This document shows positions 31,779 to 62,985 of a DNA stretch of 64,000 nt, one piece after another. Below the pieces are notes generated by a model, which did no database searches, was not told where the DNA came from, and was given only the letters and a program-made list of their open reading frames with translations. The stretch's first letter is position 1; each line of letters begins with the position of its first letter. The stretch covers positions 62,001 through 126,000 of the forward strand of contig WIXG01000012.1 of assembly GCA_009869945.1 (NCBI GenBank), in the 5' to 3' direction. Source of the DNA: Mesaphorura yosii. Taxonomy: Eukaryota; Arthropoda; Collembola; Poduromorpha; Tullbergiidae. The translations under genes were made by a program, and so were the position numbers.

Positions 31779-32315
31779 TTATGCCGTTGTGGGCTTCGCA
31801 ACTCCTTTCGCGTTATTCTTGACCTTGTAATCGGCAAGTGCTGCTTTGATGGCGTCTTCCGCGAGCATGGAGCAATGCAACTTGACTGGGGGCAGGCAAA
31901 GTTCCTTCGCTATATCGGTGTTCTTAATCCTGCCGGCATCATCCACAGATTTCCCCTTAATCCACTCGGTAGCAAGAGAGCTTGATGCGATTGCTGACCC
32001 ACAACCAAATGTCTTGAACTTCGCATCAATGATCTTGCCATTTTCGTCAACTTTGATCTGCAGCTTCATGACATCCCCACAGGCTGGAGCACCCACCAGA
32101 CCCGTTCCTACACTCTGATCGTTTTTGTCCAATGCTCCAACGTTTCGAGGATTTTCGTAGTGGTCGATGACTTTCTCATGGTAACCAGCTTGCTGCTGCA
32201 AGAAAGGGCTGATGCAGGGAAGCGATCTTGAAGTAGAACCGTTGAACAAGCCCGATCCAAGACCGGAACGTGAAGCGGTCTTAATGCAATTGAGAACGAT
32301 TTGAGAATTCGACAT
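31779..32315 (-). CDS. ISCU: Iron-sulfur cluster assembly scaffold ISCU (mitochondrial)
   Basis: The scaffold on which mitochondrial [2Fe-2S] clusters are built with NFS1 and frataxin. A single uninterrupted 178-aa frame. Residues 1-43 form a Ser/Arg-containing, acid-free mitochondrial presequence, followed by YHEKVIDHYENPRNVG. The three cluster-ligand cysteines are present in APACGDVMK, FKTFGCGSAIASSS and KLHCSMLAEDA, and the chaperone-binding motif LPPVK is intact. The coding region has no intron, unlike nearly all neighbours; a 5' UTR intron cannot be excluded. It is divergent from PEX12. Confidence 0.97.
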   Translation of the reverse strand: MSNSQIVLNCIKTASRSGLGSGLFNGSTSRSLPCISPFLQQQAGYHEKVIDHYENPRNVGALDKNDQSVGTGLVGAPACGDVMKLQIKVDENGKIIDAKFKTFGCGSAIASSSLATEWIKGKSVDDAGRIKNTDIAKELCLPPVKLHCSMLAEDAIKAALADYKVKNNAKGVAKPTTA

Positions 32316-32898
32316 CTTGAAATTCTGCAGGGTTAAACAAATTACAACTTAATTAGTTCTTGAAAACTTACTTTATTTGCGTACAATAATTAATTCTGGA
32401 TACTACTGCGATCGCAAAGTCATACCCGTCATATTATGCCTGAAACTAATTAAAAGATTAGCTGATATTAGATCGCTGGATCCTAACCTGACTGGACACA
32501 ACGATATCGTAATCGTAAATGATTTGGTCGTTTACTTTGGTGTTAAAAATGGTTTACCTTCAATTTTGCGATGTTTTCCAAATGCGTCAAATGTGAAAAC
32601 GTTTGTGATTAATAGTGATGAAACTTTTCCAGCAAATACTTATAATACGTTGCTGAAAATGACCTTGTATTTTTGCACAGAACTGTTCACGCGCTGCTCC
32701 TACGTAGTGAAATGAAATAGCAACTTTCGAGAAGATAGGTTATTACGTTGTAGTGAGAGAGGAATCTTACCTTCCTTGCTTCATGTGACAGAGATTCTTG
32801 ACCAGTTCCGTTGTTTACATTTCGAATCACGAACTCAGTTCTCGGATTTCGGAATAAATTGCACTTGGCATCGGAGGATAAATTTATGTGATTTCCAA
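32316..32898. promoter_or_regulatory. Shared upstream region of ISCU and PEX12
   Basis: 583 bp between the divergent starts of ISCU and PEX12. An open frame at 32377-32715 has no recognisable domain and is probably fortuitous. No defined promoter element is seen. Confidence 0.45.
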
Positions 32899-34339: not shown

Positions 34340-34596
34340 AGTACACTCATCGAAATCACGTTAAAGTTTAAGGTACAGACCCATTAAATCAACTCGAAGA
34401 TTTACAAGAACAAATTCGTTAGCTTGTGTCTTTCAGCTTCAGTTAACAAAATCTAGTCTCATTCTGGTTTCACGAATTTTTTTCTTACAATAAAACAAGA
34501 AACAATTGAAACGAACTACCATAGGGCGAACTTTATCCTTATATATCTGTTTTAATTCTACTAATGGAATTTATTTCGTGCATCCTTTTTAAGGCG

Positions 34597-35115
34597 TCTT
34601 TGGAGACGAAAGTCCCCAAATCACCAAATTCCTGCCTGCAGCTGAAGCAAGTTTCAATTCTTGACCGTGGACCAAATTAATCCAGTCTGCCCGAAGTCTT
34701 TGAACCGAGAAGAATGCCGTGTAAGGCTTCGGACTTCTTAGTGAAACTCGTAAGACATTCAAGCCTGTCACTCTTAGCCTGATCCCAGCCTGATTTCCGG
34801 AACGGTTTCATCTTTCTTTCCCAAGCAAGCGGTCTCATGGGTTTGGAGAAAGTGTGTCCATTCGGTCCGTCGCCTTCAATGAATACCGAAAGAACCGATG
34901 TTGTATGATGCAGTACAAGCCAAGAACAAGAATTGCTGTCAAATATTTGTTGTTTGCTCTCCTCAACTTCACTAGGCTGTACCTCCTCAACGTAAACGTG
35001 AGGTGCTGAAACCCATCCCCACTGCATTAACCGTACGTTTAGTAGCAAGTAGCAGTGGTTGCTTGCCTTCGCCTGTAGTTTTGTAGTGGATCGTTATGTC
35101 AGGTTGAAACCAAAC
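34597..35115 (-). pseudogene. Possible frame-shifted coding relic or misassembled gene
   Basis: Three overlapping leftward frames look like consecutive pieces of one protein. The first (35115 to about 35000) starts MVWFQPDITIHYKTTGEGK. The second (about 35010 to 34790) includes HVYVEEVQPSEVEESKQQ and SVLSVFIEGDGPNGH. The third (about 34795 to 34597) includes LRVTGLNVLRVSLRSP, FFSVQRLRADW and ends SSPKTP before a stop. No GT-AG intron of normal size can link them; one would need about a 26-nt intron, the other a 1-nt shift. I do not recognise the protein. It lies convergent to the end of PEX12. Alternatives are sequencing indels in a real gene, or chance open frames. Confidence 0.4.
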
Positions 35116-35637
35116 CATGTAGTAGTACTACAAACGGCAAATTACTGAACATGCAGCTCTTCTTCTTTAGGCTCTCGCCTACTTCTGCCTCTGTTAAACT
35201 GTTTACATTTTACCCAGCATTGCAATGCTCACTGCTGATTGACACCCTTTCTCATTTTCATTTCTCATTCTAAGCACAAACACAACCCAGAATTTAAATG
35301 GGAAGTAGAGTTATGTGAAATATAAACAATCATCAGTTTTTGTAAATTTCATAATCAATTTTTACGCTTACAATTTTACAGTTTGTACCAAAGTTCCCTG
35401 TGCTATTGCTCGACCTATCCCTCATCAAGCCTCGCCTAAAAGGTAACCCGAGTTCAAGGCGTTTCTCTAAAAGAGGAAGGAGCATATTGACCGTTAAACG
35501 ATCAAACTTATTGACATTTTCTTTTCTGTTTGTAGAAATATGGGTGTTCCACGACTTCTGTCGGAATTAGACCTTAATTGGTGACAACAACGTCGAAGAA
35601 CTCTATACAGTCCGTGGTTTGAAAGCCACAAAACACG
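35116..35637. other. Upstream region of the transmembrane adaptor gene
   Basis: About 520 bp without recognisable coding sequence. Several GT and AG sites suggest one or more 5' UTR exons may lie here, for example a GTAACC at 35441, but none can be proven. Confidence 0.4.
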
Positions 35638-38600
35638 ATGGCGATAATTTCAAGAAATGAAGTCGAAGAATTGTGGGTCACTCGCATCGGAGTGGCCCCT
35701 GTCTTCATCGCAGCAGTGCTCCCATTTGTTATCGGAGTGGTTGTGCTTTTGAAATGTGTTTTTAATCACTGCTGCGTCAGAAAAACCACAACAAAGTACG
35801 TTCTCATCCCTAATCACTATGTTTAGTCCTTTTATTCCCGAGAGATCTAAAACTAAACATCGAAACAGCCAGACAGTGACAGAGATAGCGTTTATTTTTT
35901 TAGCTATTCATTCGGAAGTGCACTTTGCTTTCGAGAACAGGCCCAGGACCAGATATATTTCTTGTTGCACTTAAAAAGAAGCTTGTGCATGGATTTGACA
36001 CATAATTTTGACCGATTTTCACAAATTAGCACATTTAATGGAAACTTTCTACGAATCGACCTCAGGATGTGCCTTTCTATTTTTGCGATAGTCTTTCCAT
36101 GAATGACATGAATTCGTATGAGATGAATCTTTAGATTAGCCCTCTGGATTACTCTGGAAAGTGTTTGCAATGCCTTGCCTTATGTACGGTTGATTTTGTT
36201 TTGTTTGCACGCACTAATGATTTGCACTTTTTGTTTTGTCTTTTGTTTCGTTTCGCCGACTTTCTGCCTCACTCGTCGACTCGCCTGTTTTGTACGTTGG
36301 ACAACATTCAGAGAGGAATTATTCGGAGTGGAAGGACGAATGACAATCTTATCGCAGAACGAACATGCGTTAACAACTAACAATACAAGTCAGCGTGCTA
36401 CTAACGCCGTGTCGCTGAATAATAACAACTCGAGACCTTGCTCCTCCATTTCAATGGCTGCTGGCAGCATTGTGCATGACTCAAAAAAGCAGACAAGTCA
36501 TCTCCTACAATCTTCAGGACCGATGTTGGCTGCAGACACGGTTGATGGAAGTGACTCCTTGCTTGAGACTGTCGATCTCACCGACTCCTTAAGGTTCTTA
36601 ATTTTTTGCCTTGTGCGCTTATTCAGTTCACTTGTAGGCTAGTGCCATGCCGTAGTTTTGATTTGCTTAAATGTCCTAGTCTTCCCTTCTGATTTCTAAT
36701 AGCTTTAATCTGATTTGCAAAGTTGCTTTCTGACATCGCTCTCCCTCTCTCCCACCACTTGTGTCAGCAACCATGTTAAGGACATGCCAACCACATCGCA
36801 CAAGTCAGAGTAAAATGTCTGCCGTAACTAAGATTTTGAATTTGTTCGCTATTTAACAGGGCCGCAGTGAAACGTCAGCTACCAGCCCCTCCACAGAGTC
36901 CAAATCACGCTCCCAGACGCAGCAGCTCAATGCTGAGCCACGACGGGACATCGGAGCTCTACGCTACTGTTGAAGAAGTTCCTAGTATTAAAAATTCAAC
37001 CGTAGCCGCTGCTGGAGAAAGAGAGCATCTGTACGCTAAGGTGATAAAACCCAAATTGGCGAAAGGGAAGTCTCTTGGGGACCAGCCCAGTTCAAGCAAA
37101 GGAACCGCTCGAGACCCTTCAAGTGACTCAGAAACCTACGCGTCTAGTCTCACAAATCCTCATCATCCATACGCGAAAATTAAGCGACCAAACTCGATTG
37201 AACACCCGTACGCCAAGGTCGGAGTGACAAACAGGATTCGAACTGAGAGCACAGAAACAGCGGGCGATGACGCAGAAGAAACTGACACAGACAATTATGA
37301 CGTGGCTCATCCTTACGCTCTCATAAATAAGGCTCGTACAGACCATGCCCAGGGAAGCAGCCGAAGCACCCGCAGCGGCAGCGCCGAGGTAGATAACGAG
37401 AACACTGCGTTGAATAATCAGCCAAGCACAAGTGCTCAAAGCAGTCGCCGCAGATCTCCCGAACCAGACCAGGCTGAGGAGGACGTTCCTGTACCCCCTA
37501 GAAGGCTTGGCCGCCAGTGGCGCCGAGGCAGCAATCCACAACCAAATGCAACTGTAAGTCACTCATTCAGCTGGTTGAGTTACTTGTAGAATTAGACCGA
37601 AACTAATGCGATTCACTTTCCTCAGGAGAACCAGGAAAATCAAGCAACGTTTTCTGGAGACTCGCAAGACTCGAGAGGGTACTCACATTTGTCAGTTCGG
37701 GAACCATTGTCCACCATAAAAGCTCAAACAAAGAAGGCGTCAGATCCAAATTACGCGTTTATGTCTGACGATTCCGGTATGTCAAAGATTTACGTTTCAT
37801 GAATTGTATACTTTGAGTAGACGAAACACAAATAACTAAATTCAGGTAACGATTTTATTACTTTAGAGGAAATGTACGCTGCCATTGAAGATCCTTCTGA
37901 TGCTAACTACATGTCAATTGACAGGCCCTCGCGATTAGGTACGCAGAAAAGTTTTCTATGAAAAGTTATGCTTGGAACTGGCTTGGGTTTCATTTAAATT
38001 ATTTTTGTGAACAGGGCCAACTAGCCTGATATCTCCCATTCCTGAGAGGAGGGAAGCCAACAGTCCTCTTCCTCCGCCACCGCTCGTATCCTCGCCACCG
38101 CCAGCTGTAGAAAGTCCTTTGGCAGCAAATCCTAGCAGCGGACCTGCGATTTATGCTCAAGTAACTAAGCGTAAGAAGAACAAAGCACCGCCCACTCCAA
38201 GTGCAGATACGAATGGTCAACCACACGCGCAACTTGGCGCTGACACTCCATCAAAGCCGAAACAGAAAGCAGACCCCATAAACGTCAGTGCAAGTTCTGC
38301 TTCGGCTCAGCTTGCAGCGGCTGAAGCCGAGCCGAGACGCTGGTCAAAGGCAGATATTAGTTACTCAGAGTTCGAAGTGATCCGTGAGTCCCTTTTCCCG
38401 TCAACTTCAACTTCTGGTGCTTCTCAAATCAAACACAAATCGTTCAACGGGGAAAATTACGCCAGCATTGGCGCGGATGCGTTGCTCGACGAAGACAACT
38501 ACAACATCATTCCTGAACCACGGATTCGAAGCCAAGTTCCCAGACAACCCGAACGTCACTCTTCGCGCCACGAAAGTATGTATCAAGAAATTGACGAAGT

Positions 38601-39453
38601 GACGGGCTCCAACAGAGCTGGCAAACACACGTACCAGGAGTTACCTCATCGCTCCAATGCTAGCACTAGTGACGACCACTATCACGGGATTGGAAGCAAT
38701 CGAAGGCGCAAGAGGAACAAGAGCAACGAAAAGAAGTCCGAGAATAACGCCCCTGGAATGTACCAAAGAGCGAACGCAAAAACCACGGAAGGAGAAGATT
38801 CTGACGACGAAGACGAAGAAGGCTTCTACGAAAAAGTAAAGGCTAAACCTCGACCTCAGGACAAACCGAACAGCAGCAGCAATGCAAACATGGATTCAAA
38901 GAAGCACGGGTATGAGAAATTGAAACGAAAACCTACCGAAAACAATGTCAATGCAAATATTTCTGACGACGATGACGACGGGTTCTACGAGAAAGTAAAG
39001 TGCCCACCGAAGATACCGTCGACGTCAACGCCGCAGGAGCAGGGCCACAATTCGAAGAATTCGAACCATCACCCGGCTCAACCCAGTAAAGAGTCAGTTC
39101 TTGGTGCTAGTGCCAAATCAGTGGTGAGCCACAATCACATTCATGCCGGGCGGCTCGGTAGCGGTGGTGATGAGGACGTGCACAATGCGGAAGTGGACCA
39201 ACTCTACGCTCGTATTGACAAAACAAGAAAGAAGAAACCGGAGCATACCGTTGTCGCTGTCGATGAAGGCAAATTTGTAAAAAATCATCAACCTGCTGCA
39301 CCTACGTACGAGCCTTCGAAGTCAACGTCGGCGTCAACGTCAAAAGCGCATTCGTCTAAAAGCCCCAGCAACTGGCACGGAAGCAGCGGCAATGAGAGAA
39401 GGAACGAACCAATCCTGACATTGACCAAAGATGTAACAATCGAGTATATATGA
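35638..39453 (+). CDS. LAT/PAG-like transmembrane adaptor with 19 YxxPhi motifs
   Basis: Six exons (35638-35795, 36312-36593, 36860-37553, 37626-37776, 37867-37938, 38015-39453) close in frame at 931 aa. Residues 1-16 are a short extracellular end. Residues about 17-38 are one hydrophobic helix (VAPVFIAAVLPFVIG...). Cys40, Cys45 and Cys46 follow (KCVFNHCC), as in palmitoylated adaptors, then a stop-transfer RK. The remaining 880 residues are hydrophilic, probably disordered and cytoplasmic. I count 19 Tyr-x-x-hydrophobic motifs, for example YATV, YAKV (twice), YAKI, YALI, YSHL, YAAI, YMSI, YAQV, YASI, YQEI, YQEL, YEKV (twice), YEKL and YARI. Candidate SH3 ligands are LPAPPQSP and VPVPPRR. Vertebrate LAT, PAG1 and LAX share this plan, but I see no sequence identity. 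The role as a kinase substrate that docks SH2 proteins is inferred from architecture. Confidence 0.72.
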
Positions 39454-40531
39454 CACAGGCTAAACTCAGAGGTTAGTACCTTTTCACCGTATGCAGAATT
39501 CTCAATCTGAAAGACTTTTGTCTTCTATACTCATTTGTTGTGTAAACTAAACTTTGCGTTTGTGATCTAGTATTGTAATTAAGCTAGCAGGCTTTTACAA
39601 GTTTTAATTACCTTTGTACGTTCATGCTTTGCAAAAAGAACTGATTTCAAGTACAAACTTTTTATTTTAGTAGAATTTATACTTGTTTTCTTTTTAGAAA
39701 AAGTGGTAGCTGGAATGTTTGTCTGCACTGGCGCTATTAGTACTAATTAGTAGTAGTAAATGATTGCAGAATACGTCGAAGATTAATCCTATTGCTAGTT
39801 AGAACATCGGTGTATTACTTAATGATAGAAAGGCGCAAATTTCTAGTCTAAAGCAAAATCAATGATTCATTGTACTGTCGTCTCTTTAATAAGGTTAAGA
39901 AACTCAAACGTTCTTGGGCTGCGACCCATTTCTACGAGTATTTAGTTATAATTTCGTATTTCCTTGATTTTTGCAATTTTATAGATCTTTAACAATTGAC
40001 ATGGGACTACAATGAATGTAGTTCCTTCGACTTGGGCTTCACGATACCCATTTATTAATATCAGTCATGTGTTCAGTAATTTACAGTGAGAGCTACACTT
40101 AAACAAGTGAGAACAGTTTTGTGCAGATTTCTTTTCAGGGTAAACTTTTGTTCTTTATTATCAGGGCCTTGAGCCACACTCATTCTATCGAAATTAACCT
40201 TCAGCTCAGATAGCAAAATGTGAGTAAAGCAATTTCAGGCAGGTACACTTGGATACTCGTGTTCAGATTCAGATATTAGTACGAGATTACTCAATTTGAG
40301 CCGTCTTAAAGGCGCTAGAACAATACAAACGATATTAAACGAATTATGGCAGAATTACTGTCATTTGAGAAACTTCGGCCTTATGCCTTAAGATAAGTTA
40401 CTACCGTTTTTACTTGAAATAAAAGATGAAAGAACAAAACGACGGTTAGCTGAGAATGCTTCACTTTAATTCATTTCAAGCGTATTATATAACAAACTAA
40501 GTAAACCAAAAATTGATTGAGCGAAATCAAA
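39454..40531. other. Convergent 3' region of the adaptor gene and FIGNL1
   Basis: About 1.08 kb, AT-rich, with several candidate AATAAA-like signals (for example AATAAA near 40419). It presumably contains the 3' UTRs of both genes. No coding signal seen. Confidence 0.55.
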
Positions 40532-43233
40532 TCATACATGGCACCCGAATTGCTCATCCCAGTTTTCATAAATTGACAAATCATGAGACGCCACACTCGC
40601 CTTGACCCGTTTACGAGCCACTTCAAAGTCCTTTAGCTGTATCGGGCGCACCTGAAGCAATAATAAGTTAAGCATTAAACTGGATACTGGATAGTGGACC
40701 ATGTCGGAGCTGATTGTAATGGCAGTGGGCCAGTGGGTATCAAGTTTCATTTTACCTTTTCGACGTTAATGTGTTCGATATCATGCCCAATATCTCGAAT
40801 CGGTCCGTAAGCCGCCTCCCGCACTAGCGACGACATATCTGCATAAACAAGACATGACACATTCACATTACTGAAAACTTTCTGGCCTTGATCTCCATTC
40901 AACGTTCGAGCGAATTCAGCGAACTGAAGAAGAATTTGGAATACCTGCACCAGAATATCCATCTGTCATTTGAGCAATAGTTTCAAAGTCTTTCTCACTC
41001 AATTCAGCATTTTGTCCCATCAAAACGCGTTCTACTAAATGCTTGCGGCTCTGAAATCGAAGGCAAATGGGAACTCTTAATACAAGTCTCACATTCAAAA
41101 TATCTCATAGAATAACAAAAACTTCTGACTTACAGCTTTATCAGGTAAGGGAATATAAACGCGTTTAACTAATCGACGACGAGCAGCTTCATCCAGTTCT
41201 TGGGGTCTGTTCGTGACGCCAATTACAAGAATTCGGTCCTCGCTGGCAGTTCCACATCCGTCCTGAGAAGCAAACGAAGACCGGTAGCTTAAATGTAATG
41301 CCCGTGAGAGTTGGGTTATCAATTATCCATCTCCACTTACAAATTGAATCAAGAATTCAGTTTTAAGTCGCCGGGAACTCTCGTGCTCGGTATCACTTCT
41401 CTGAGTCAGGATGGAGTCGATTTCGTCGATGAATATCACCGACGGTTGCTTTACACGTGCGACTTGAAAGAGTGCCCGAACCATTTTTTCTCCGTCTCCG
41501 ATCCACTTTGAGGTTAAGGACGAGGCACTTATGTTGAAGAAACTAGATTTTGATTGAGTTGCGATAAGTCGACCGATCATTGTTTTTCCAGTTCCTGAAG
41601 CGAGACCAAGACAAAGTCACTGATCATAATTCCATACAGAATTCTCTATTCTCATATCAGCATTACCTGGCGGGCCAAACAGTAGGACACCTTTCGGCGG
41701 TCCTCGCAATCCCGTGAAAATATCAGGGCGCAGAATTGGCCAGATTATGATTTCCTAAACGCCAAGAAATGGATATTAACATGTGAGATTCAAGGGATGT
41801 AAATTGAAGTCTAAAACAAACCCGAATCACATCCTTTGGACCTTCCAGGCCTGCAATGTCGTCCCACTGTGTATTTGTCTCAATTTCCATGATTTCGTTT
41901 AAAATCGCCTCGACCATTTTCGATTCCACATTTTTAAGTCTTTCATCCAACATCAGTTGCTGCACTCTAAAGTTAAGCAAAGTCAATATTAATTTCTTTC
42001 CTTTCACGGTTAACATTCTTCATGAACTTACTCAGGGTTCTCAGACACTTCATCCGAATCGGTTTTGCAAACTTTCTTAGAGGGTTCTGCGTTGTTATCA
42101 AGGCCTTCCATTTTTCGAAGCCCAGACACGTGGACATTCGACGAATTTCCTGCTGCTGGAGGTGGTAGACGACGCTTTATGCCTCTTACTTTGTCGTCAA
42201 TTATCTAACAATTATAAGGCATAATTCTAAAGCGTACACTGAATTCTGAAGGGAAGAACTAAACAAGATGCTGGCTTTGTACCATTTGCTCATATGCGGA
42301 CTTAAATGGGTTCATCGGCCCGGAACTCTCGATCTCCACCCTGGAATTGCTCGGTTCAGATCCAACGGATGGTGCTTCAGATCTTCGACTAAACGCTGGG
42401 ATGTTGTTCTGGGAAGTTCCGGTAGGATTAGCACTTAATTTCTTGCAGAAAGCATTCAAAGAAATTGTGTTGTTATTGTCTCGTGAGTTTCCTGTACTAT
42501 CCGTGATTGGTCCAGCTTGTGACGTTGACGCAAAAACGAGAGTGTCATCACAAAGGTTTCGTGGTGGAGAGGATCGTTTCTGAATTGGTCTCGGAGGAGC
42601 GAAGTTCTTTCTAACATTCCTACTTGGAGCTGGCGCTGGTAATGAAGGTATGATGTTGGACTGACCTTGCATGACGGACTCAACTGCTTGCTGGTTAAAT
42701 CTAAATGAGCTGAGTTCATCGGCTAGCAAAGGAATAAATAGGAATACAATGCAAGGAGTTGTATTGACAAACAGTTAATTTCACGTGATAATGCTAATAC
42801 CTTTAGGATTGTTCGACTTTGAAGGGAAAATTGCCTCAACCAAACGCCTGTTGTCAGGATTTTCGGCATCAACGGAAAATCCTAAACTACGAAAGATTTC
42901 TGTGATTGATCGTTTCTTGTACGACAACGTTGGCTGATTCTCTGCTTTAAATTTGCATTCCCAATTTAGGCAGGAACTTTTATGAAATAAATTAGAGTAT
43001 TGTAATATCGGCTCACCGTCGTTGACCTCAGCAGAATCCCCCCTTTCGCTTACACCAAATGTAAGTGGTTGCCTTCTACTATCAGCAGTTGGCCCATCTT
43101 CATTGTCTCGAATTCCAAAGAGTATTCCAACGCACTTGACAAGGTGTTCCATGTTGTTTTCATGGACGTCTTTGGAAACATCCCCGTTGTGCCTGGCTGT
43201 AGACATGCTCTGGAAGGGGGAGAATGACTTCAT
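40532..43233 (-). CDS. FIGNL1: Fidgetin-like AAA ATPase 1 (FIGNL1)
   Basis: An AAA ATPase that removes RAD51 from DNA and takes part in homologous recombination. The AAA module is complete: [35 protein letters not shown] joined to [14 protein letters not shown] (Walker A, split by an intron); [12 protein letters not shown] (Walker B); [18 protein letters not shown] (sensor and arginine fingers); [22 protein letters not shown]. It ends with [14 protein letters not shown], the conserved Vps4-type C-terminal helix of FIGNL1. Upstream, [10 protein letters not shown] contains FxxA, the type of RAD51-binding motif found at this place in FIGNL1. I chose the ATG at 43231-43233; an in-frame ATG at 43204-43206 is a possible alternative. 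It is divergent from the RAD51D-like gene. Confidence 0.95.
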
Positions 43234-44278
43234 TGAAAGAAGATAAGAAGAATGTTATAATTAATTTGCAATTAGTCGTAATACCAGTTCAGTTAGGCTA
43301 TCAAATTATCTATTGAATAAATTAATTCAGAGTAGAAAGAAACCAGAACATAGCCCTACATACGTTTTGACACTTGATTGCAATGAGTTGCCGCCTGTGC
43401 CGAATTTGAATAAATCTGCTGCCAAGGCGGTCAAAGCGGACTGGAAAAAAATCAAAGCAACTGGTGGCATTGGACTCTGTGTGTTCAGATTTTCTGTCTA
43501 TTGTATACTGGGCCGGTGGAGTGTAGTTTAATTTTCGGAAGTTTTCAATTTGTCGATTAGACTGGTCAATTGGTCCCACTGTCGCTGTCGATAGTAGCTG
43601 GGCTGGAAAAGATACGGGCATAACACGAAACACGAGTGAGTGTTTACTCTTTTAGTAATTTCAATGCAATGAAGATAGAGACTAGTGATGAATTGTTGAT
43701 ACTAACTACATTCCTTTTGCAGGTTGCAAGTTGATAAGATTCTTGGATTCTTCGTGCTCTATGGGCAGATACCTTCAAGTTGCATCTGGTTGAAGATTGA
43801 GATTGAGGTAAGTTGTCTTTGAATGAATGTATGCTTCAGTTAGGGAAATGCTGGCGCGTGAAGCAGTAAGTTCATTTCATATGAGTCCAGTGTTCAGGGG
43901 TTGGCACCATAGTTAGCCTTTCGGCCTTGGAGTTACTCGTGTCTGTCCCTGTCCTAATTTATGGTAGTAGCAAATAGTGTTATGAAATGAAACGCCAAGA
44001 AATACCGGCCTCGTTGTCTCATGTTCTCTTTGGTCTGATCACCACACTTGTAGATATCTTAGGAGCATTCATGTGACAGTTATTTTCGAGGAACCTGATC
44101 CGTATTATTGTCCTAAATTGAACTTGGACCTATTGCATGGACATGGTCTTAACTAAGTCCAGCTCCATTTAGCGCGTGGTGCATTGTTGCTCGAATTCAT
44201 GCATGTTAATTCATCGTATCTGTATGCAGGACTTGAGCCGCTCCATCGTTTCTTAATTCTGGCTTCTGCTGAACAGGA
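43234..44278. other. Shared upstream region of FIGNL1 and the RAD51D-like gene
   Basis: About 1 kb between divergent genes. It may hold 5' exons of the RAD51D-like gene: a candidate exon at about 43732-43808 lies between a TTGCAG acceptor and a GTAAGT donor. An open frame at 43313-43531 is unassigned. Promoters of both genes should be here. Confidence 0.45.
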
Positions 44279-45070
44279 ATGCTTCCTCTACATGTCCAAA
44301 AGGATACTAGAAGCCAGACAGGAATAACAAAGTTAGATGTGGCATTGAATGGAGGCCTCCAGCCTGGCGAAATTCTTGAAATATATGGAAAGTCATCGGT
44401 TGGAAAGTCAATTATGGCCCAGACAATTTTGGCAGAGATTTGTCATCGGCGAAAGGATGGAAGTCAGGCTTTATACATCGATACAAAGAACGATTTGATC
44501 CCTTCCAGACTTTTCAACATTTTCAATAAAAGCCAGTCAAGTATGCGGAAAGTTCGAGTCCTTCGAGAACGTACTCCGAAAAAGATCATAAGGGTCCTGA
44601 AATACTTTGATCAAGAAATTGCTCTGGGCCAGTCGCAGTTCTGTGAAAAGTTACGAATCATCGTGATCGATTCATTGCCAGTGATATTTTACGGCATCAA
44701 AACAGATGACAGTGAAGAGTGGAAGAAGGAAGTAGAAAAGTTTATGGCAAAGCTGAAGAAAATGGCTGAGAAGCGTCGTCTAATTGTGATCCTAATTAAC
44801 CACGCAGTTAGTAACTTTTATTCACGTGACAAACAGAGAGGTAGTACTGGTTCCAGTTCACATCCGCCAAATCCACCCGTTAAACCGGCCTTAGGAAAGC
44901 ACTGGCTCTCAATCCCAAACTATCGACTTCTGCTGACTCGAGTTGATTCTACGGCGAGCGCAGAGGCAACATTTCGGGCAACTCTTGAAAAAGGAACACG
45001 AGATTCTCCGAACGCGAATCAAGAATTTGATTACCGCATTACAGAAAAAGGAATCGTAGACCCGTTCTAG
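44279..45070 (+). CDS. RAD51D: RAD51D-like recombinase paralogue
   Basis: RAD51 paralogues assist RAD51 loading in recombination repair. The visible exon gives 263 aa: LQPGEILEIYGKSSVGKS (Walker A, G-K-S-S-V-G-K-S), ALYIDTKNDLIPSRLF, LRIIVIDSLPVIFYG (Walker B), RRLIVILINHAV, and the KPALGKHWLSIPNYRLLLTR block that fits RAD51D better than XRCC2. It ends GIVDPF. Human RAD51D has about 100 residues before Walker A; here only about 36 follow the first Met. The sequence just upstream (CTGAACAG) looks like a splice acceptor, so the gene probably starts further left and this is the last exon. The paralogue name is therefore likely but not certain. Confidence 0.75.
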   Translation: MLPLHVQKDTRSQTGITKLDVALNGGLQPGEILEIYGKSSVGKSIMAQTILAEICHRRKDGSQALYIDTKNDLIPSRLFNIFNKSQSSMRKVRVLRERTPKKIIRVLKYFDQEIALGQSQFCEKLRIIVIDSLPVIFYGIKTDDSEEWKKEVEKFMAKLKKMAEKRRLIVILINHAVSNFYSRDKQRGSTGSSSHPPNPPVKPALGKHWLSIPNYRLLLTRVDSTASAEATFRATLEKGTRDSPNANQEFDYRITEKGIVDPF

Positions 45071-60609: not shown

Positions 60610-62985
60610 ATGTCCTACCATTATTCTGGTGGAGGTGGTCACAGTGGCGGTGGCTACAATAATGGGTCCGACTACCAGACGAGGATACCACCAAGATGGC
60701 TAAATTGTCCACGAAAATCTGACGGGTTCATTGCCAACAAGTTTATCGTATTCAAGACACCGTTGAGCTCAAATTTTGATTCAGTTATGCCAGTGGCGAA
60801 CAGATTCCAGCCGAATATGATTCTTCAATTTGTCAAATCGCAAGGGGTATGTTCGAGTAAAGCTCTCAGAGAACCAAATTAAGATAAAGCTTTGAAATTA
60901 ATGAGATCCTTCGTCTGCAGTTGAAAATAGGGCTATGGATTGACTTGTCAAACACGTCGCGTTACTACTCGAAAGATGAGATCGAAAAACATGGAACTAA
61001 TTACGTCAAATTGCAATGTCGAGGTCACAGAGAGACGCCTTCTCCCGACACTGTCGCAACTTTCAGACGTTTATGCTCAGACTTCCTTAACAGAAACGAT
61101 AAAGATTTAATCGGAGTGCACTGCACACATGGATTCAATCGAAGTGGCTTCCTGATTTGCTCGTTCCTGGTAGAAGAGTACGACTTTAGTGTCAACACTG
61201 CTTTCAACTTATTTGCTCGCCACCGACCGCCTGGGATTTACAAGCAGGAATACATAACTCAACTTTGGAACAATTATCCCGACCCAGATTATCCAGAGCC
61301 GCCGGCAGCTCCACCATTACCAGATTGGTGTTTTGAAGACGGCGACGTAGTAGATGATGACGGCGTTGGGTCGGTTCCTGGTACATCTTCGAGTTTCCGA
61401 ATGCAAAATGGCAATGGTCAAACCAAGCGACAGAACGATGGATCTGTGGAACCTGTAAACGGGATAAAAAGGCGAAGAGAAAATTTTAGGGAGAATCCCA
61501 CATTCGTGGAGGGCGTCGAAAATGTCTACCCAATTACTAATCGAGAAGAATTGCTTTACTTGCAAAGAAAAGTCCAGGACATGTGCGGCTGGGAATCGTA
61601 AGTTGGCAATGTTGTTTTGCATTACCAGTTGTACGTACTTCATTCGCGAATTTTTCGCAGCTCTGGATTCCCTGGCTCACAGCCTGTTTCAATGGACATT
61701 AATAACATTGCCAAATTGGCTGAAAAGCCATACATGGTCTCCTGGAAGGCGGATGGAACACGGTATCTGATGTTGATTGAAAAGGCTGGAAGCATATACT
61801 TCATCGATCGTGACAACTGTGTCTTCAGAGTGGAAGGCGTCACCTTTCCTAGCAAGAAGAATTTTGATGAGCATTTATATCAAACACTTGTTGATGGTGT
61901 AAGTGCTCCAACATTTAGTGCAAGCAAAAGTGGCCATTATTGCATTGACTTACTGTTGTGTATCGCTTAACAGGAAATGGTTTTGGACAATGTCAACGGA
62001 ATTACGGTACCAAGATATTTAATTTATGATATTATTAAGTTTCGTGGCGAGGACACTGGCAAAATGGACTTTCGAATAAGACTGACATGTATTAGGGTAA
62101 GTTCAGAAGTTCGCTCATGGGTTTTAATGCTGAAAACATTTTCTCCTGAACTAATAAAAACTTTGTTTCATATACACAGGATGAAATTGTAAATCCAAGG
62201 TACAAAGCCATAGAAAGTGGCTTAATCGACAGAGCGCTGGAACCATTTGGAGTTCGCTTTAAGACATTTTGGTTTGCTGAGGACGCGTTCCGAATTCTGG
62301 AAGGGAAATTTTCTCAGGAATTATTGCACGAGCCAGACGGATTAATATTTCAACCTACAAAGGATGTAAGGGTTGCTTGATAACGTGCTTGACTTCCCGA
62401 AACTACTGTCACTTGTTTTGTAGCCGTATGTTTGTGGCCGTTGCGATGAAGTCCTCAAGTGGAAGCCACCCGAGTTGAATTCAATTGACTTCAAGCTGAA
62501 AGTTTGCACAGAAACTGGAGAAGGGTAAGAAGAGACTCAAGACTCGACAGACCATTGCATAACGGCATAATGCAATAATCACTATTCTAATGTTTCTAAT
62601 GCTAGTAAACTACCTACGAAAATTGGTGAATTGTACGTCGGCGGCCTATCCACACCATTTTCGGTAATGAGCCCCATTCCCAAAGCCGTGCAGAAGTACG
62701 ACGGGAAAATTATCGAGTGCAAGTACGAGAACCGGAAGTGGGTGTTTATGAGAGAGAGAACGGACAAATCTTTTCCGAATGCATTCAACACTGCTAAAGG
62801 TAAACAAGTAGTTAACTCCACTCTCCAATTGTCATAAAAAATCGTTTCCAATCTGTTCAACGTTCACCTTTTCCATTTCAGCCGTTGCCTTCAGCATTCA
62901 GCATCCCGTGACGAAGGATTACCTCCTGGAGTATATCGCGCTAAAGCGGTACAAGAAACCTACGGAGGTACAAGAACTATCGTAG
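60610..62985 (+). CDS. RNGTT: mRNA capping enzyme (triphosphatase-guanylyltransferase)
   Basis: A bifunctional nuclear enzyme that adds the cap guanosine to nascent mRNA. The start at 60610 precedes a short Gly/Ser-rich leader ([11 protein letters not shown]), then [20 protein letters not shown]. The triphosphatase half contains the phosphatase loop [13 protein letters not shown] (HC-x5-R). The guanylyltransferase half has the nucleotidyl-lysine motif [11 protein letters not shown], then [44 protein letters not shown] and [15 protein letters not shown], and the OB-fold region [26 protein letters not shown]. About nine exons. The stop at 62983-62985 follows [13 protein letters not shown]; an intron starting at the GTACAAG there could replace the last five codons. 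Confidence 0.96.

Follow-up and report, generated by a model that had tools for sequence, protein, structure and literature searches.

How Csk is brought to Src kinases in arthropods is a question to which we know of no settled answer, and it is raised by a gene of Mesaphorura yosii lying within the 64,000-nucleotide stretch of DNA that was analysed as a whole (the window). Cytosolic Csk needs adaptors such as PAG to act on membrane-bound Src, and the adaptors named in the accessible parts of the literature are vertebrate (PMC2803307, PMC6082945, PMC10312003). A single-copy, tyrosine-packed and putatively membrane-bound scaffold, in a genome that also carries Csk and Shark genes, is a concrete and testable candidate for the recruitment of Csk to Src. 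If this is true, lymphocyte-style adaptor platforms would have been invented more than once; the locus suggests that such docking platforms may exist in animals without lymphocytes.

Gene model and predicted membrane anchor

Exon-by-exon reconstruction of 35638-39453 on the plus strand yielded six exons, five GT...AG introns and 931 codons without an internal stop, in agreement with the initial annotation, which had read a frame of this length and exon number from the sequence. The parts of the model are as follows.

35638..35795, plus strand: exon 1, residues 1-52, with the outer end (1-18), the helix (about 19-41) and Cys40, Cys45 and Cys46
36312..36593, plus strand: exon 2, residues 53-146, tyrosine-free; 282 nt, phase 2-2, skippable in frame
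36860..37553, plus strand: exon 3, residues 147-378, with YxxPhi tyrosines Y181, Y205, Y251, Y264 and Y299 and the SH3-type motifs RQLPAPP and PVPPRR
37626..37776, plus strand: exon 4, residues 379-428, with Y397 and Y421 (YAFM, the sole YxxM)
37867..37938, plus strand: exon 5, residues 429-452, with one ITAM-spaced pair, Y432AAI-x7-Y443MSI; 72 nt, phase 1-1
38015..39453, plus strand: exon 6, the remaining tail and the stop codon, with a polyproline run, the C-terminus IEYI and motif tyrosines Y499, Y569, Y601, Y615, Y642, Y659, Y675, Y724, Y752, Y777 and Y850

The tail is very probably coding, and the joining of exon 1 to exons 2-6, predicted from splice signals and phase, is likely. These grades derive from shuffling and from codon usage. 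Of 1000 dinucleotide shuffles for each exon, one left the exon 3 frame open and none the exon 6 frame. A codon-usage score, with ten further ORFs of the window as its training set, ranked the called frame top for exons 2-6; for exon 1 the called frame scored 0.183 and another frame marginally higher, at 0.194.

The 931-residue protein has a single hydrophobic helix at about residues 19-41, with a 19-residue hydropathy peak of 2.81 at 19-37, and the best stretch beyond residue 60 reaches 0.43. One helix had been described before; the outer end, previously given as 16 residues, comes to 18. Flanking charges, counted by eye, are -1 for residues 1-18 and +2 for residues 39-56, which fits a predicted N-out orientation. 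The three cysteines reported earlier are present in the rebuilt protein, at the inner border of the helix and in the pattern C-x4-CC. Beyond them extends a tail of 885 residues, close to the original estimate of about 880 and carrying the proline motifs that had been noted with it; Ser, Ala, Pro and charged residues are abundant in it, and by the charge-hydropathy criterion it classes as disordered (0.379 versus 0.415).

The edges of the model offer some minor observations. The frame of exon 2 is open upstream into intron 1, and the stretch 36127-36311 of the window would there encode a hydrophobic, Cys-rich segment; it is probably T-rich intron sequence, the other reading being an alternative first exon. 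At the far end a donor-like GGTTAGT occurs soon after the stop codon (within 39454-39490 of the window), possibly the start of a 3' UTR intron, and the earliest plus-strand AATAAA within 39453-40600 is at 40418.

Tyrosine motifs and repeats of the tail

All 25 tyrosines lie in the tail, and 20 of them begin a Yxx[LIVMF] motif. The initial annotation had counted 19 YxxPhi motifs, a figure that holds for Yxx[LIVM] and rises to 20 once Phe is admitted; Yxx[LIV] accounts for 18. Among 5000 composition shuffles the mean number of Yxx[LIVMF] motifs was 3.66 and the maximum 10, so that none reached 20. The residues around these tyrosines are biased as well. An acidic residue occupies -3 in 12 of the 20 motifs (shuffle mean 0.48), Ala occupies +1 in 10 (binomial p 3e-6) and Ile or Val occupies +3 in 15. 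Nine tyrosines conform to YAx[V/I] (shuffle mean 0.18), the longer form [DE]xxYAx[VI] occurs 4 times (shuffle mean 0.02), and the pattern Y[ATS][KRQN][MIVR], which we take to be that of the Csk SH2 domain, occurs at 5 sites (Y205, Y251, Y264, Y499 and Y850; shuffle mean 0.25); for the -3 acid and for each of these three patterns, 0 of 5000 shuffles reached the observed count. Neither YxN nor NPxY is present in the 931-residue protein.

According to the accessible part of PMC11136658, ABL favours an aliphatic residue at -1, Ala at +1 and Pro at +3, and tyrosine kinases generally favour aliphatic residues at -1 and +3. As putative kinase sites, the tail motifs fit these preferences well in their +1 Ala and +3 aliphatic residues; among the ten YA motifs just four have Leu or Ile at -1 (Y181, Y205, Y499 and Y850), and none has Pro at +3.

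Near-repeats of HPYA and GFYEKVK had been read as a sign of expansion by duplication. Both are present in the sequence, and expansion by duplication at the DNA level is clear for the GFYEKVK pair only.

38806-38841 and 38965-39000, plus strand: internal duplication, two 36-nt copies encoding GFYEKVK, 83% identical and 159 nt apart

The HPYA triplet is not among the direct repeats of at least 16 nt, and within that limit its origin by DNA duplication is unsupported. At its three sites the Tyr codon is identical, with synonymous differences in the codons for His, Pro and Ala, a pattern compatible with selection on the motif, the sites being too few for a test. Two further matches are short enough for chance: one of 17 nt at 82% links Y181 with Y850, and another of 23 nt at 74% falls at a different place in exon 3.

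Likeness to known adaptors and a proposed brake on Src

Transmembrane adaptors (TRAPs) commonly consist of a short outer end, one helix and a long tail with multiple tyrosines, as set out in the accessible part of PMC2803307, and the six-exon model has the structure by which that source defines them; its juxtamembrane Cys also agree with the shared features given there. The earlier designation as LAT/PAG-like holds for this plan alone, and a relationship to LAT or PAG was not detected. The CxxC of palmitoylated TRAPs (LAT, LIME, NTAL and PAG) is absent, Cys40, Cys45 and Cys46 being spaced differently, and YxN is likewise missing. No Pfam family, PAG included, matches the 931 residues at E<=1, nor does any PDB sequence at E<=1. 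A genome search with the Pfam PAG profile PF15347 returned nothing at E<=10, nor did the profile match in control genomes, which leaves the absence of PAG from the genome unproven.

LAT and NTAL, as far as the accessible accounts of them go, share the overall plan with this protein. The YxN motifs of LAT are its Grb2/Gads sites, and the LAT tail is much shorter; here the tail is several times longer, and LAT was set aside as the nearest analogue on account of the absent YxN sites. PAG/Cbp (PAG1), in the parts of its description available, shares the short outer end, the single helix, the juxtamembrane Cys, the multi-tyrosine tail and the Csk-type motifs; it differs in having 10 potential sites against 20 motifs here, CxxC against C-x4-CC, and a place in vertebrates, whereas the arthropod protein is without a Pfam PAG match. 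PAG anchors and activates Csk by way of the Csk SH2 domain, as the accessible text of PMC10312003 and PMC6082945 has it. EPIYA-like Tyr-Ala sites in p140Cap and Pragmin also recruit the Csk SH2 domain, in the accessible parts of PMC3561454 and PMC3593179; those two proteins carry two motifs and one, respectively, and Pragmin is cytoplasmic, whereas the present protein has nine YAx[VI] motifs, all of them beyond its membrane helix. Motifs of the form YA[K/R/Q][V/I] suggest partners of the Csk, Src or Abl type, which would make PAG a better analogue than LAT. In the open-licence literature on invertebrate adaptors, Csk and ITAMs, covered in part, no arthropod LAT/PAG-like adaptor appears in titles or the beginnings of abstracts.

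The assembled genome comprises 93.0 Mb in 1127 contigs, and in it the gene is single-copy: a search with the 931 residues, in which candidates were pre-filtered, returned six matches at E<=10, all of them its own six exons. Expansion of a gene family was rejected, there being no further copy at this threshold. A scan for SH2 domains gave at least 38 exon-level matches over the cut-off, and 30 of the 38 became loci that were read by eye. The genome has a Csk SH2 exon, whose best PDB match is a CSK chain (E 1.2e-32). It also has a kinase gene (G000:C20:155476-159950, loci L020 and L026) with SH2 and ankyrin domains recognised by Pfam and the order SH2-ankyrin-SH2-kinase, which we take to be the Shark/HTK16 layout; its top PDB relatives are SYK and ZAP-70, after one chain labelled EGFR. 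Labels assigned by eye include two Src kinases (L002 and L005), Abl and an SHP2-like phosphatase, along with Grb2, PLC-gamma, RasGAP, Crk, Nck, p85 and others. The scaffold for Src-family kinases and SH2 proteins that was originally proposed has its candidate partners in this genome, the Csk and Shark-type genes identified by PDB or Pfam comparison and the others recognised by eye; that the protein serves as such a scaffold is what we infer from its motifs.

Taken together, the +1 Ala and +3 aliphatic fit, the Csk-binding precedents among EPIYA-like sites and the TRAP plan favour, as the best explanation, a PAG-like protein of convergent origin that brakes Src signalling or serves as its hub. 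At a probability of about 0.6, the protein would be a single-copy arthropod transmembrane adaptor acting as a Src brake of the PAG/Cbp type, and at the level of sequence it is a strong candidate for an adaptor convergent with PAG. The outer end appears too short to form an ordinary ligand-binding domain. The helix, together with the juxtamembrane cysteines, possibly fatty-acylated, would keep the protein close to Src kinases on the inner side of the membrane, where kinases of the Src or Abl type could phosphorylate the Yxx-hydrophobic sites of the disordered tail. The phosphorylated sites would then dock SH2 proteins, chiefly Csk through YA[K/R/Q][V/I]; Src, Shark and the SHP2-like phosphatase are the other candidates for docking there. 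Csk recruited in this way would turn Src off, a feedback brake in which the direction of the signal, like the choice of Csk over Shark as the main partner, is presumed.

Alternative readings and genomic surroundings

The strongest alternative, though a doubtful one, is an activating platform in which YxxI pairs act as ITAMs for the tandem SH2 domains of Shark, in the manner of the fly engulfment receptor Draper, in place of a Csk brake. Three strict pairs (Yxx[LI]-x6-12-Yxx[LI]) and four relaxed ones are present, the best-spaced of them stands alone in exon 5, Y421, Y432 and Y443 are spaced 11 apart, and the Shark-type kinase is available. Src42A-Draper-Shark is an established pathway in flies, and Draper exists in an ITAM form and, through alternative splicing, an ITIM form, as described in the accessible parts of PMC4503800 and PMC8092387. 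The likeness would extend to the Src-ITAM-Shark logic and to splicing that changes the motif; Draper as portrayed there differs in its EMI/NIM ectodomain and NPxY, neither of which is found in the 931-residue protein. Against this reading, block shuffles matched the pairs in 432 of 5000 cases (strict) and 1218 of 5000 (relaxed), so that their spacing does not exceed chance at the given motif density, and the Pfam ITAM profile has no match in the protein and one in the genome, below the cut-off at E 9.8 and on a different contig. An ITAM array was rejected as the main reading on these grounds. Omission of exon 5 preserves the frame and leaves 907 residues, and the exon 5 pair may be an ITAM-like, Shark-binding site that predicted splicing could remove.

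A composite reading would see in the locus a membrane-anchored series of EPIYA-like sites native to an animal, an arthropod counterpart of PAG independently invented and equipped with a splice-switchable ITAM module. EPxYAxV is under-represented in mammalian proteomes and has been proposed as a promiscuous SH2 'master key' for bacterial effectors, as stated in the accessible part of PMC3593179. The full EPxYAxV does not occur here: an acid stands at -3 in four of the nine YAx[VI] motifs, but Pro at -2 in none, and because of this missing Pro the composite reading is slightly less probable and best regarded as doubtful.

A docking protein of the cytosol, comparable to Gab/DOS or Cas, with exon 1 unused or belonging to another transcript, is an unlikely reading. 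Exon 1 is short, the codon-usage score does not favour its called frame, and its join is drawn from splice signals and phase, all of which would suit such a protein; yet an ATG, a single clean helix and a phase-matched GT donor are all present in it, and no other gene to which it might belong was recognised in the interval from 34339, where an ORF ends, to 40532, from which minus-strand ORFs follow. More improbable still is that the tail belongs to a receptor whose ligand-binding part is encoded by an unrecognised upstream exon. Receptors with a ligand-binding part encoded upstream are common, but here an in-frame TGA at 35620-35622 stands five codons before the ATG, and the three stop-to-stop ORFs of at least 60 residues wholly contained in 34340-35637 on the plus strand are of 64-71 residues, none of them coding-looking by eye. 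That the YxxPhi motifs are AP-2 type endocytic sorting signals and not SH2 docking sites is likewise very unlikely, for although YxxPhi is also the AP-2 consensus, sorting signals to our knowledge need neither an acid at -3 nor Ala at +1 nor twenty far-spread copies, and here twenty biased copies run from about 140 to about 810 residues from the helix.

The candidate PAG-like adaptor gene lies in the window among genes recognised by Pfam as NifU_N (ISCU type, 31779-32348), an AAA ATPase (41323-41616), Rad51 (44273-45070) and a dual-specificity phosphatase domain (60888-61601, of the mRNA-capping type by eye). Elsewhere in the genome two genes read by eye as PLC-gamma-like differ in structure: the one in L011 is split into exons, and the second (L008/L023, G000:C647:17800-21357), situated on a contig of 29 kb, has an uninterrupted 948-residue frame and may be a retrocopy or may mark a contaminant contig. 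Exon-level matches to Chitin_bind_4 and Hemocyanin_M number 66 and 26, which indicates an arthropod with genes of the hemocyanin/phenoloxidase type; a tardigrade or a mite was set aside, neither group being known to have them. Of the 66 Chitin_bind_4 matches, 13 form a cuticle-protein cluster on a single contig (G000:C314).
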